9,108 bases of DNA from Candidatus Bathyarchaeota archaeon (GTDB lineage: Archaea > Thermoproteota > Bathyarchaeia > Bathyarchaeales > Bathyarchaeaceae): the NCBI GenBank assembly GCA_020356305.1, contig CP070636.1:945838-954945 (forward strand), read 5' to 3'. Position 1 is the first letter of the stretch; each line of letters starts with the position of its first letter. Positions 5,079 to 9,108 of the stretch are shown here, piece after piece. Made by a program: the position numbers and the translations under genes. The notes under the pieces are model-generated. The model had not been told where the DNA came from. It was given only the letters and a program-made list of their open reading frames with translations, and made no database searches.

Positions 5079-5903
5079 TTGATTTCATGGAAGTACTCTT
5101 TTGAAAAAGTAAGCAGAGAGCTCGAGTTAGCGAAGAAAAAGAAGGAGACTCTGGACGATCTGTTAAACACAGGCAAAATCTCGCAGTCTACCTACGACGA
5201 TCTGAACAAGAGCATCACTGAAGCTATCTCTGAGATTGAAGCCCGCCAGAAAACTTTAGCTGGAAAAATGACCGCCAAAATCACCGAACTCGAACAGCAG
5301 GTCAAGACACTGGAGAGATTCCTTGCAAACACGGAGATCGAATATGCGGCAGGAGAAGTCGATGAAGAACTGCATGAACGTGAAAGCAGCGCCCTCACCC
5401 TCGGACTTGAGACTGCAAAACAACAACTTGGTGTAATTAAAGAGGCGATGGCAGATCTTTTGCCAGGAGAAGCCGAGCTTGAACCTTCTCCCCAGCCAGC
5501 TGAGACTATAGAAGAAGTAGGGGAAGAAACGCCTGAAGTGCAGTCTGAGCCTCAGACCGAAGCGCCCGTGGAAGCACAGGAAGAGGTTGAATCCGGGTCG
5601 GACGAAGCATCATATGAGCAAACGACAGAGATTTCTACAACTGAAGAAGCCGAGAGGGCAATTGAAACGCTCGTAGAGGAGACATCAACAGAAGAAAGTT
5701 TCCCTTCATCTGAGGAGTCAGTTGAAGAAACCGTGACTGTTGAGGTTGGTGAAAGTTCTGAAGACCAAGAAACCCTCGAAGATACTGAAACTAGTGAGAT
5801 GGCGGAGACCGAGATCGCTGTGGAGGAGGCTCCAGTAGAGGAGTTCTCCTTGTCTCAAGACGAAGAAGAGGCAACAGTGGGAGAGGAAGAGACGGAAGAA
5901 TAG
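5079..5903 (+). CDS. Coiled-coil protein with long acidic C-terminal tail
   Basis: A 274-residue protein in two parts. Residues about 4-130 are almost entirely helical with heptads (RELELAKKKKETLDDLLNTG, ITELEQQVKTLERFLANTEI), interrupted by short turns such as GKISQSTYDDL and AGEVDEELH. Residues about 131-274 are low complexity and extremely rich in Glu with Thr, Ser and Val, hence disordered and strongly negative. The helical half reminds me of archaeal proteins loosely called CdvA-like (ESCRT-type cell division), but the PRC-barrel of true CdvA is absent, so this is only a suggestion. The start is TTG 5079: TAGGTGTG about eight bases upstream is a fair ribosome-binding site and an in-frame TAG at 5055 limits extension. 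Stop is TAG. Confidence 0.72.
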   Translation: MISWKYSFEKVSRELELAKKKKETLDDLLNTGKISQSTYDDLNKSITEAISEIEARQKTLAGKMTAKITELEQQVKTLERFLANTEIEYAAGEVDEELHERESSALTLGLETAKQQLGVIKEAMADLLPGEAELEPSPQPAETIEEVGEETPEVQSEPQTEAPVEAQEEVESGSDEASYEQTTEISTTEEAERAIETLVEETSTEESFPSSEESVEETVTVEVGESSEDQETLEDTETSEMAETEIAVEEAPVEEFSLSQDEEEATVGEEETEE

Positions 5904-6023: not shown

Positions 6024-7124
6024 CTATCCTTTGGATAGTTTTTTTTCTTCAACCCACTCTATGTATTTTTTTCTCGGCGCAAACTTCAGCCCTATCTGTT
6101 CTATATACGGCTTAACTCCTTTGACTGTTCTTAGTCCACATTCAATGTTCAATTTAGACTGTGCCACTCCCGCGAGTCCAGATTTGGGTGGGATAAGGGA
6201 AGTCACAACATTGGCTCCAGCCATCAACCGGAGTTGAAGGCCTCTAGTTCCATCAATGTCATAGGATGCTGGAATAAGTTTGTCTGGTTGTGTTATCCTC
6301 ATCAAGGCAATAAATTTCATCTCATCAAGTATTGATGGGGAAGAGCAATTTTCCATGGGGGTCCCGGGCTGAGGTTGGAAACCCATTGCGCGCACTTGAT
6401 GAGCCCCGATTTCTTGCATGGCGAGTATAGAATCAACTCGGTCTTGATCGGTTTCGCCTATGCCTATGAGTACCCCTTCCTCAATCAACAAGCCTTCCTT
6501 TTTCGCTTGTAACTTTGCCTTCATTCTAACGTCAAAACTCTGTCCAACCCGCAAACGATCAAAAAGCTCCCTGTTATGTGTTTCTTGATATAGAGCGAAC
6601 CAGTCCGCTCCGGCGCGAGCCAGCGCTCGCAGTATTTTCTTTGGAACAACGCCAGGTGAGACCATAACAGGCAATCGTGTCTCATCGTCGATCTGTTTAA
6701 CTAGACCTACAAGATGCTCGTAATGTCCTTCGTCATGAATCAACGGATCCTCACTCATGGTTAAATCAATCAAGTGAACTCCGGACTTTTCAAGCCTTGT
6801 TGCGTATTCTAGAATTTCCTCTGGAGTCTTTCGATATCTTGGGCACTTGACATTGGGTTTTCTATAGAAACAGAAAATGCAATAGTTCCTACAATAGGTT
6901 GATGAGTAAATGAAGCCGTATGGAAAAACAGCGTTTCCAAAATTCTTTTCGCGGATACGCTGCGCAGTGGAGAAGATAGCGTAAAGGTCAATTATATCGC
7001 TGGTTTTCATCAAGCGTGAGATTTCCCTTTTGGTCAGCTTTTTTTCGCGCACGGCTTTATCTAAGATTTTCAAAGTTGCAGGATCTCTAGCTTTCATATG
7101 TGTAAACCTGGATTCGATAGTCAA
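6024..7124 (-). CDS. pylB: 3-methylornithine synthase PylB (radical SAM)
   Basis: PylB converts L-lysine to (3R)-3-methyl-D-ornithine, the first step of pyrrolysine synthesis, in the cytoplasm using S-adenosylmethionine and a [4Fe-4S] cluster. The 366-residue frame carries the cluster motif CxxxCxxC (C78, C82, C85; STYCRNYCIFCFY), where methanogen PylB has STYCKNQCSFCYY. Other PylB-specific blocks are DLTMSEDP (120-127), SPG (156-158), ALYQETH (177-183), LRVGQSFD (191-198) and LIPASYDIDG (283-292), the last near the substrate pocket. Length fits the family (about 350). The start is TTG 7124 or ATG 7097; neither has a decisive ribosome-binding site. It follows pylSc by 45 bp as the last gene of the operon. 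The stop is TAG, unusual for a gene of the UAG-decoding pathway; the next in-frame stop, also TAG, is 38 codons on. Confidence 0.95.
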   Translation of the reverse strand: MTIESRFTHMKARDPATLKILDKAVREKKLTKREISRLMKTSDIIDLYAIFSTAQRIREKNFGNAVFPYGFIYSSTYCRNYCIFCFYRKPNVKCPRYRKTPEEILEYATRLEKSGVHLIDLTMSEDPLIHDEGHYEHLVGLVKQIDDETRLPVMVSPGVVPKKILRALARAGADWFALYQETHNRELFDRLRVGQSFDVRMKAKLQAKKEGLLIEEGVLIGIGETDQDRVDSILAMQEIGAHQVRAMGFQPQPGTPMENCSSPSILDEMKFIALMRITQPDKLIPASYDIDGTRGLQLRLMAGANVVTSLIPPKSGLAGVAQSKLNIECGLRTVKGVKPYIEQIGLKFAPRKKYIEWVEEKKLSKG

Positions 7125-7169: not shown

Positions 7170-8003
7170 TCACTGCACATCTAAGCTGGCTCCGTCCAAA
7201 TAAGTGAGACACCGGGCAACGTGCTTGATTCTTTTGGTGTCCATTTTAATCATGGCCATTCGCTCGATGCCAAACCCAACCCCTGCCCATGCCTCGAAGA
7301 TCCCCCAATTTTTGTCCAATGGGTGAGGGCCGACGACAGCAGATGCTATTTCATTTCCTTCGATTATTAAATCCGTTGTTCTTCCATAGATTTCTGATTT
7401 CACGTTTTTCGATCTATAGGGAGGCAGTTGAACTGCCCTGATAACGATATTAATAATCTCTTTCAATCTTTCGAGGGGTTCATTATTTGGCGCCAATTCA
7501 ACGACGTTTAGCATCGTGAACTCTTCGAGATGTTCTCGTCCCTTGCTTTCCTTTCTGAAGCATGGACCTATCTCAAAAATGCTTACGGGTTTCGTGAATT
7601 TTCTCAGGGATTTCATAATGTAGTAAAGGTTAGGGGCAAGCATGGGTCTCAGGCATCTGCGGTCTCCAAGCCAGTGAATTTGGTTCCAAAGTTTGTGTGT
7701 CTCACTTATTCCCATGCGTTCGATGAACTCTCTCGAAATGACAAATGGCGTGGTGACCTCAACGAATCCAGCAGATGTAAGTGCTTCAACTAGTTTAGAT
7801 TCAATTCTTCTTATGAGAGGTCTCCTTGTGATCTTAAGTAGATTCAGCAGAGCCTCCTTATGCTTCCGCTCCCATGCGGTAGTTAGACCATCAAAGGTAT
7901 CGTCGCGTTCTTTCTCATTTTTGAATGTAAGAGTAACGTGACTGTCTGCTCCTAATTCTTTTAATCTTCTCTTCTGTGATAGAGTGAATTGGATGTTGTT
8001 CAT
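7170..8003 (-). CDS. pylSc: Pyrrolysyl-tRNA synthetase, catalytic domain (free-standing PylSc)
   Basis: A class II aminoacyl-tRNA synthetase that attaches pyrrolysine to tRNA-Pyl. It has 277 residues, the size of the isolated catalytic domain; the N-terminal tRNA-binding domain is in the gene just upstream. Visible signatures are RPMLAPNLY (119-127), motif 2 FEIGPCFRKES with R150, EHLEEFTMLN (157-166), SAVVGPHPLD and motif 3 GVGFGIER (241-248). By alignment from memory with M. mazei PylRS, A123, L126, Y127, N166, Y206 and W239 match pocket residues A302, L305, Y306, N346, Y384 and W417, while C348 is replaced by V168, as in M. alvus PylRS. ATG start; a purine-rich GAGGGAGAG lies about 13 bases upstream. 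Stop is TGA. Confidence 0.96.
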   Translation of the reverse strand: MNNIQFTLSQKRRLKELGADSHVTLTFKNEKERDDTFDGLTTAWERKHKEALLNLLKITRRPLIRRIESKLVEALTSAGFVEVTTPFVISREFIERMGISETHKLWNQIHWLGDRRCLRPMLAPNLYYIMKSLRKFTKPVSIFEIGPCFRKESKGREHLEEFTMLNVVELAPNNEPLERLKEIINIVIRAVQLPPYRSKNVKSEIYGRTTDLIIEGNEIASAVVGPHPLDKNWGIFEAWAGVGFGIERMAMIKMDTKRIKHVARCLTYLDGASLDVQ

Positions 8004-8053
8004 AGATTATTCTTTCTCTCCCTCTTTCCTTTCAAGAATCTTTTGACCTTCCA

Positions 8054-8284
8054 TTATGGAATGCGGCAATCTTTACAAACCGATTTAACCCATCTGTTTC
8101 TTAACCAACGCGCCGCTCTGCTCCTTCTTGAATCTTTCACCAAGATCGTTTCTTTACAATATGTCGTCACCCTAATAAAGTGCCCTAGGTTTTCAACTTT
8201 CTCAACGCCGTGAAGAATACCGCTTTTGGAAGGCCACAACTTGATCTTACTAACAAGGGAAAACAATTGAAGGTGTCTACTCAA
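8054..8284 (-). CDS. pylSn: Free-standing tRNA-Pyl binding domain PylSn
   Basis: A 76-residue protein homologous to the N-terminal domain of Methanosarcina PylRS, which grips the variable loop and T arm of tRNA-Pyl. Shared features are L-W...SGILH near the start, the basic block DSRRSRAARWLR (51-62) matching NSRSSRTARALR, and CKDCR at 70-74 matching CKRCR. The zinc ligands are all present (H25, C43, C70, C73; H24, C42, C70, C73 in M. mazei). The frame closes with TAA right after this domain, 50 bp before pylSc, so it is a separate protein and not a fused synthetase. Start is TTG 8284, 19 bp after the tRNA gene, with AGGGATAG upstream; it was chosen because residues 8-25 align to the known domain start. 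Confidence 0.93.
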   Translation of the reverse strand: MSRHLQLFSLVSKIKLWPSKSGILHGVEKVENLGHFIRVTTYCKETILVKDSRRSRAARWLRNRWVKSVCKDCRIP

Positions 8285-8303
8285 TACTATCCCTTCATGC
8301 CAA

Positions 8304-8372
8304 CGGGGGCCCCGGGAGTCGAACCCGGCTGCGGGGGCTTAGAACCCTCGCGACCACCTCGGCCAAACCCCC
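8304..8372 (-). tRNA. pylT: tRNA-Pyl (anticodon CUA)
   Basis: The 69-base gene folds with every peculiarity of tRNA-Pyl: acceptor stem GGGGGTT/GGCCCCC (two G-U pairs), a single base T8 before the D arm, a 4-bp D stem with a 5-base loop (GAGGT), one base before the anticodon arm, a 6-bp anticodon stem, a 3-base variable loop (CAG), and a 5-bp T stem CCGGG/CCCGG with loop TTCGACT. The anticodon CTA is at 8342-8340, so it reads UAG. The discriminator is G (8304) and CCA is not encoded. The anticodon stem CGAGGG/CCCCCG contains one A-C mismatch. It is the first element of the operon, 19 bp before pylSn. Confidence 0.96.
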
Positions 8373-8393
8373 ACTTCTTGGTGGAGAATTTTT

Positions 8394-8410
8394 TTTATAT
8401 ATATCTTTTT
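8394..8410 (-). promoter_or_regulatory. Strong TATA promoter of the pyl operon
   Basis: On the minus strand this reads CCAAAAAGATATATATAAA. The TATATATAT core (8404-8396) is centred 28 bp before the first base of tRNA-Pyl, with an A-rich BRE-like element just before it. This places transcription initiation at or within a few bases of the tRNA 5' end. No second promoter is obvious before pylSn, so pylT, pylSn, pylSc and pylB are probably transcribed together. Confidence 0.75.
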
Positions 8411-8734: not shown

Positions 8735-9108
8735 TTAGCTGGATGTTACGTGAGTTTTTTTGTCGGCTTCTTTCACGATCGCGCGAATGTCTTTCGCGAT
8801 GTCTTTGTCCAGTGGTTCCGGTTTGTGGTGCGCCAAGATGTGGTCAACCTTTTCGCAGGCCTGCTTGAAGAGGTCTTTCCACCCTTTCTTTTCCCAGTCG
8901 GCCCTCCAGTCTCTGGTGAAGAGGTCGGGTATCCACACGGCGGTTCTCGCCTTCGTGAGGGTGCTCGCCTGGCTCATGAAGTGGCCGCCGGGTCCAACCC
9001 GCATGATCGTGTCCAAGTCAATCGTGTCATCCGTCACCTCGATGCCCTTTAGGCTGTGTCTTACCGCCGCGACGATTTCGTTGTCGATCACGTACTGTTC
9101 CAGGCTCA
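8735..9108 (-). CDS. mttB: Trimethylamine methyltransferase (MttB) family protein, C-terminal part
   Basis: The frame is open to the window edge, so only about the last 124 residues are seen; the GTG at 9091 is internal. SLEQYVIDNEIVAAV at the edge, then the MRVGPGGHFM block and the ending HKPEPLDKDI, are typical of the C-terminal part of the MttB/COG5598 family. These enzymes pass a methyl group from trimethylamine or related quaternary amines to a corrinoid protein. True MttB carries pyrrolysine at about residue 334 of 495, which would lie upstream of this window, so whether this is Pyl-containing MttB or a non-Pyl glycine-betaine-type relative is undecided. Its place next to the pyl operon favours the former. 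The GC content (140 of 240 bases in 8821-9060) is well above that of pylSc. Stop is TAA. Confidence 0.85.
   Translation of the reverse strand, partial: SLEQYVIDNEIVAAVRHSLKGIEVTDDTIDLDTIMRVGPGGHFMSQASTLTKARTAVWIPDLFTRDWRADWEKKGWKDLFKQACEKVDHILAHHKPEPLDKDIAKDIRAIVKEADKKTHVTSS

Follow-up and report, generated by a model that had tools for sequence, protein, structure and literature searches.

A Bathyarchaeia gene cassette for a two-subunit pyrrolysyl-tRNA synthetase, with an early stop codon in the PylSn tail

The pyl cassette

The window, by which we mean the whole 9,108-nucleotide stretch analysed here (Candidatus Bathyarchaeota archaeon, contig CP070636.1), carries on its minus strand, in order of transcription, the end of an mttB-family gene, a tRNA-Pyl with anticodon CUA, pylSn, pylSc and pylB. 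The features discussed below are:

8735-9106, minus: mttB-family gene, C-terminal 123 residues, running off the window end (TIGR02369)
8304-8372, minus: tRNA-Pyl (pylT), anticodon CUA, with U8, a 5-nt D-loop, G73 and no encoded CCA (ARAGORN, minimum free energy fold, reading of the sequence)
8334-8348, minus: A.C mismatch in the tRNA-Pyl anticodon stem, pair 4/7 (A 8348, C 8334; stem comparison)
8054-8284, minus: pylSn, encoding the tRNA-binding small subunit of PylRS as a free protein, 76 aa from a TTG start to a premature TAA at 8056-8054 (TIGR03912; model against 5UD5 and 5V6X)
8000-8053, minus: cut-off PylSn tail, 17 in-frame codons (WKVKRF...) followed by TGA at 8002-8000 (intact counterpart in L001)
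8000-8003, minus: ATGA, the pylSc start codon overlapping the old pylSn stop (sequence; the same in L001 at 10001-10004)
7170-8003, minus: pylSc, the catalytic large subunit of PylRS, 277 aa (TIGR02367; tree)
6024-7124, minus: pylB, methylornithine synthase of the radical SAM type (TIGR03910; tree)

Judged by the NCBI curated profile thresholds, all three pyl proteins score above the cut-offs of their families, which excludes a chance match: PylSn with TIGR03912 at E 1.2e-25 (89.6 bits, cut-off 51.15), PylSc with TIGR02367 at E 4.6e-77 (258.6 bits, cut-off 178.15), and PylB with TIGR03910 at E 2.3e-125 (418.1 bits, cut-off 348.2). The pylSn and pylSc genes lie in different frames and no single open frame spans both domains, so the split of the pyrrolysyl-tRNA synthetase (PylRS) is real; the first-pass annotation had read a tRNA-Pyl, a separate 76-residue PylSn and a separate PylSc here, and ARAGORN, the two profiles and the differing frames all bear it out. 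A fused gene broken by a sequencing error at the 8054 stop, which that annotation had named as a refuting case, was considered and rejected because the frames differ and read-through stops at a TGA (8002-8000) that shares bases with the pylSc ATG (8003-8001).

ARAGORN calls the tRNA-Pyl (anticodon CTA in the gene) at 8303-8373 on the minus strand, the paired molecule running from 8372 to 8304. Its minimum free energy fold is a cloverleaf with a z of only -1.3 against shuffles, and no Rfam family matched at gathering score anywhere in the window, the tRNA assignment coming from ARAGORN and from our reading. A TATA-like stretch, TATATATA, which may be an archaeal promoter motif, lies near 8400, about 28 nt upstream of the tRNA.

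A genome scan, of which the best 80 of 363 loci were used (18 archaeal and 62 bacterial by their titles), found the nearest named relatives in two Candidatus Bathyarchaeota MAGs, bin28 (locus L001 of genome G001, 81% PylSc identity) and bin796 (locus L002 of genome G002, 66%). Neither pylC nor pylD lies in our window, and since the next sizeable frame downstream of pylB (5079-5903) is convergent, they do not follow pylB. That plus-strand frame encodes a CdvA-like coiled-coil protein with a long acidic tail (PF18822, E 7.6e-12); farther along, a minus-strand gene for a ParA/MinD-type ATPase (1109-1894; PF13614, E 1.2e-19) is preceded by one for a small winged-helix-like protein (2262-1903). Among nine related genomes, pylC scores over its cut-off in eight and pylD likewise in eight; G001 has no pylD match over cut-off and G002 no pylC match, in records whose fetched stretches contain runs of about 100 N. 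Both records (CP070759.1 and CP070659.1, the source of L001, L002, L087, L090 and L091) are titled chromosome; the G001 pylC is broken by an N run, and the same pylC stretch stands at two of these runs (L087, L090), as joined contig ends would. Calls of gene order and gene absence from these records are thus unsafe, and an incomplete Pyl pathway was dropped as a candidate novelty, the N runs and the broken pylC explaining why we make no such claim.

The mttB-family piece matches TIGR02369 at model positions 356-469 (E 1.2e-34, the fragment scoring 119.6 bits against a whole-protein cut-off of 525) and is cut before the Pyl site, so that the pyrrolysine codon would fall outside the window. Over 117 aa it is 84-85% identical to three TAG-bearing copies in G001, where the TAG (O) lies in the context VAGCOADAK or IAGCOADAK, and about 40-44% identical, over most of its length, to G001 copies without TAG at the motif; a nearer match of 32 aa beside the L001 tRNA (94%) does not reach the Pyl site. 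The family is expanded in both relatives, with 26 matches in G002, of which 15 have one in-frame TAG, and 20 in G001, of which 3 have TAG, several of the matches being fragments; all 13 of the G002 TAG copies that were fetched have it at the same Pyl motif. Such a number of candidate Pyl-containing methyltransferases, twelve or more in one Bathyarchaeota genome, seems noteworthy. Because no TAG-bearing copy of G001 or G002 reaches the trimethylamine cut-off of 525 bits, and because the window's own Pyl codon would lie outside, the substrate is uncertain. One TAG-less paralogue in G001 (L152, G001:C1:518515-519927) has an in-frame TGA where close paralogues have Cys (SGV-TGA-TIQL); it may encode selenocysteine or mark a pseudogene or an error.

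Early stop codon and lost tail of PylSn

The new point here is the TAA at 8054, which the first-pass annotation had taken for the natural end of pylSn. On sequence comparison it is a nonsense change within a conserved tail, standing in place of a conserved Glu codon that reads GAA in L001 (CCAGAATGG versus CCATAATGG), and past it the pylSn frame continues for 17 codons, WKVKRFLKGKRERKNNL, to the TGA that overlaps the pylSc start; the apparent 50-bp gap between the genes is a still recognisable PylSn tail, and in the alignment the PylSn proteins of relatives go on beyond the last zinc cysteine, with IPEWKxKRF and further residues. L001 has an intact 92-aa pylSn (9726-10004) which overlaps pylSc (from 10001) as ATGA, and in L002 the end of pylSn overlaps pylSc as TAATG. 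Thus, were the 8054 stop an error, the two genes would form a 4-nt-overlapping pair as in L001, not a fusion.

Of 122 PylSn proteins (16 from a tail-less query and the additional ones among the best 120 of 2146, which were ranked by a profile including the tail and so favour tailed PylSn), 121 have 14 or more residues behind the last Cys, the exception, with 3, being P0001, the window's own PylSn, called two codons longer and with the same end. In the fairer sample drawn by the tail-less query, 15 of 16 proteins have the tail. The same minimum of 14 holds for all 56 measurable PylSn loci of 57, one being unmeasurable and another, L028, counted with 19 residues or more although its frame is cut by the contig end. 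What the window protein lacks is a conserved C-terminal helix, usual for the PylSn+PylSc class but not defining it, which appears in the L001 PylSn model as helix 79-85 at the position of the window's lost tail. A differently broken PylSn frame was seen in a Thermoleophilia MAG (L032, about 9680-9906), where two tblastn pieces lie in different frames.

There is a real possibility, which we take seriously, that the TAA arose by an error in sequencing or assembly, or that it is an allele rare in the sampled population; the real pylSn would then have 94 codons and the ATGA overlap of L001. A single base separates the window TAA from the L001 GAA; the tail behind it is still alignable, with pN/pS 0.34 over the 13 tail codons comparable with L001 (few codons, and synonymous sites far diverged); and none of the 121 other PylSn proteins examined is without a tail. 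Yet the two likely start codons have changed too, the start region reading ATG GCA ATG in L001 and ATA GTA TTG in the window, so that the start is weakened (ATG to ATA and ATG to TTG) and the TAA is not the only functional difference between the window pylSn and that of L001; P0001 was moreover called with the same end, though it may be this very record. Together with the constraint on the PylSn core described below, the selection signal in the tail means that the truncation is recent, or is a polymorphism or an error.

The PylSn core and its tRNA

Given the gene identities, order and separate frames set out above, the predicted PylSn fold, and the archaeal placement of PylSc and PylB, the locus is very probably a Bathyarchaeia cassette, mttB-pylT-pylSn-pylSc-pylB, whose PylRS, of the known PylSn+PylSc class, has two subunits, with PylSn clipped in this sequence. 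The small zinc-binding PylSn would hold tRNA-Pyl at its T and variable loops, PylSc would charge it with pyrrolysine, and the Pyl-tRNA would read UAG in corrinoid methyltransferases such as the product of the adjoining mttB-family gene, which would bear a TAG; the pyl genes would be cotranscribed, and translation of pylSn and pylSc would ancestrally have been coupled through the ATGA overlap. The change of a single base, from the GAA of L001 to TAA, would then have removed the last 18 PylSn codons, including the conserved short helix, leaving a core that should still fold and bind the tRNA, perhaps less tightly, while coupling to pylSc would be lost.

The window PylSn model (the best of five, with a mean pLDDT of 80; the other four 60-76) aligns with 5UD5 and 5V6X, the M. 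mazei N-terminal domain bound to tRNA-Pyl, at a TM of 0.89 by query and 0.79-0.81 by target. With the full L001 PylSn model the target-normalised TM rises to 0.89-0.91, so the helix lost in the window belongs to the solved domain. The M. mazei chain has identical residues at the positions aligned with H25, C43, C70 and C73 of PylSn, which presumably bind zinc. Between the window and L001, pN/pS is 0.24 for the PylSn core, 0.22 for PylSc and 0.24 for PylB, values which point to purifying selection on the core; relaxed selection on PylSn was considered and not seen. The core fold and zinc ligands thus survive in the model and the alignment, and we expect a working split PylRS with a clipped tRNA-binding subunit.

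The fourth anticodon-stem pair of the tRNA is A.C in the window, A-U in L001 (whose tRNA-Pyl was missed by ARAGORN and found by sequence) and G.U in L002. Inner mismatches occur in 5 of 44 distinct tRNA-Pyl anticodon stems, and all five include the fourth pair, which is mismatched by itself in the window, in the fused-class tRNA of L113 and in the bacterium L031, and along with the third pair in two Methanomassiliicoccales tRNAs (L043, L064), where the register is less sure. We regard the A.C as compatible with tRNA function; such a pair, if protonated, is isosteric with G.U.

A different account holds that PylSn is decaying in a lineage moving from the split to the PylSn-less (delta-N) class, with the tRNA already partly adapted, and we think it unlikely. 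It would cover the lost tail and the weakened start, and by our reading the A.C would be pair 28:42 in the numbering of PMC10810272, in the accessible text of which G28:U42 is an identity element for the PylSn-less M. alvus enzyme; L002 has G.U there. The elements G3:C70 and G5:C68, also named in that text, are present in the window tRNA, but many of the tRNA-Pyl listed have a G-rich acceptor 5' end. The same text gives the M. alvus tRNA as having no base 8 and as losing activity when one is inserted, whereas the window tRNA has U8; the PylSn core is constrained like PylSc; and the window's end branch in the PylSn tree (0.089) is not flagged as long. PylSn loss in progress, in which the helix, the coupling to pylSc and the ATG start are gone and the tRNA has an A.C at 28:42 resembling the G.U needed by the M. 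alvus enzyme, is an improbable reading; if it held, delta-N enzymes could have descended from split ones whose free PylSn eroded step by step.

Phylogenetic placement, PylRS class and significance

We return to the reading of a clipped two-subunit PylRS. The PylSc tree has 89 rows, its input including 22 proteins from the 120 listed out of 3856 found, together with 28 of the 62 bacterial loci, all 18 archaeal loci and 20 fetched fused loci. In it, i) the window is one of six rows in a clade shared with L001, L002 and three metagenome proteins (100/97); ii) this Bathyarchaeota clade is sister to 12 metagenome rows, one labelled Acidoferrales (100/99); iii) both group with the TACK-type archaea Methylarchaceae, archaeon H03B2, Methanomethylicus and Hecatella (95/83); iv) bacteria form a clade (96/86) also holding JdFR-19 and a related Methanosarcinales MAG; and v) the Methanomassiliicoccales have a clade of their own (100/99), as do the 20 fused loci. 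A PylSc of M. alvus appearance, which the first-pass annotation had described, was therefore rejected. The PylB tree, made by a quick method with SH-aLRT support only, is congruent, joining the window to L001 and L002 (97) and these to the TACK-type archaea (99). The PylSn tree, on 74 columns and without L032 (broken frame), P0001 (the window's own), P0016 (partial), and L112 and L113 (fused loci with no tblastn hit), has an 8-row clade of the window, L001, L002 and P0002-P0006 (99/99). Of the separate phylogenies proposed for the two subunits, that of PylSc thus places its gene with archaea, and that of PylSn agrees as far as it is resolved. In NCBI, a PylSn of a Candidatus Bathyarchaeota MAG is already named as such (P0006).

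The sister clade of 12 PylSc rows (P0054, P0055, P0059, P0081, P0093, P0109 and others) has the one Acidoferrales label, on P0093, and its member P0081 lies on a 3.68-Mb contig; its cassette has possibly passed between Bathyarchaeota-like archaea and bacteria. A recent bacterial acquisition of the window's cassette, which the first-pass annotation had named as a refuting case and to which that bacterial label and large contig might be thought to point, is very improbable and was set aside, since the window and its sister clade stand with archaea and apart from the bacterial clade, PylB does likewise, and P0093, queried against 396 genomes sampled from the phylum to which G361 belongs, matched (E up to 1e-40) in 1, G361, at 46% identity, so that no bacterial home was found for the sister clade.

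Three PylRS classes are described in reviews, and the accessible text of PMC11363022 counts 204 split, 79 fused and 66 PylSn-less sequences. Archaea with PylSn and PylSc as two genes are likewise on record, seven genomes with JdFR-19 and Ca. Hydrothermarchaeum profundi named among them (PMC9499178, citing Guo et al. 2022, as far as accessible), or 7 of 75 archaeal genomes (PMC11764691, citing the same work, in the part available). On its sequence the window PylRS is thus of the PylSn+PylSc class, a known kind, neither new nor the intermediate between classes that had been proposed. The order tRNA-Sn-Sc-B, with PylSn directly behind the tRNA in an archaeal cassette, holds by coordinates and trees and is not distinctive: among the best 80 of 363 loci it recurs in the archaeal L001, L002 and L016 (Hydrothermarchaeum) and in 9 of 62 bacterial loci (L006-L009, L011, L017, L019, L020, L032), and the available part of PMC3941956 reported 'pylSnScBCD' in bacteria in 2014. 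That bacterial PylSn usually sits elsewhere was borne out in the same 80 loci: it lies directly upstream of PylSc in 15 of the 62 (against 7 of 18 loci in archaea), downstream in 30 of 62, and elsewhere than directly upstream in 33 of the 48 where PylSn was found.

Among the closest known systems, L001 and L002 have the same order and differ in their intact, overlapping PylSn. JdFR-18 (Ca. Hydrothermarchaeum profundi, L016) and JdFR-19 (Methanomicrobia archaeon, L040) also have tRNA-Pyl directly upstream of a free PylSn and this directly upstream of PylSc. Their PylSn have 15 and 18 residues after the last zinc Cys, against 3 in the window; the window PylSc and PylB fall in the Bathyarchaeota clade, whereas the PylSc of JdFR-19 groups with bacteria and its locus yielded no PylB. 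The bacterial systems of the Desulfitobacterium hafniense type share the two separate genes and the same families and differ in their commonly downstream PylSn; 3dsq and 2zni, which we take to be D. hafniense structures, are the best-scoring solved relatives of the window PylSc. The fused Methanosarcina enzyme has an N-terminal domain with the fold predicted for the window PylSn but is one polypeptide with a separate PylSc clade. The delta-PylSn enzymes of the M. alvus type share a stand-alone catalytic domain of similar length but have no PylSn (PMC3941956, accessible text), belong to a different clade and, in M. alvus, are served by a tRNA without base 8.

Host distribution was surveyed by genome class. 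In the class of G001, 2 of 256 genomes have a PylSn that scores over its cut-off and 3 of 256 a PylSc that does; among 14 control genomes PylSn matched only in Methanosarcina acetivorans. In the class of JdFR-19, PylSn scores over its cut-off in 46 of 99 genomes (47 matches), where G264 and G009 have short frames (96 and 160 aa) and the other matches are at least 406 aa, as for fused genes. A Pyl cluster in the Bathyarchaeota MAG JdFR-11 has already been reported (PMC9723677, in the part available); no PylSn was found in that locus (L003), nor did the matches listed in the literature search include a title announcing a Bathyarchaeota PylSn.

The significance of the cassette is that it places a split PylRS of archaeal placement in the Bathyarchaeota, an uncommon host group by the counts above and one that a review, in its accessible text, puts among those with the PylSn-less form (PMC11764691). 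It adds to the view, already published, that fusion in Methanosarcina is a derived state (PMC9499178, as far as accessible). For genetic-code expansion, the locus offers a further PylSn, PylSc and tRNA set, and the natural deletion of the PylSn tail, if real, would be a ready test of the role of the C-terminal helix.
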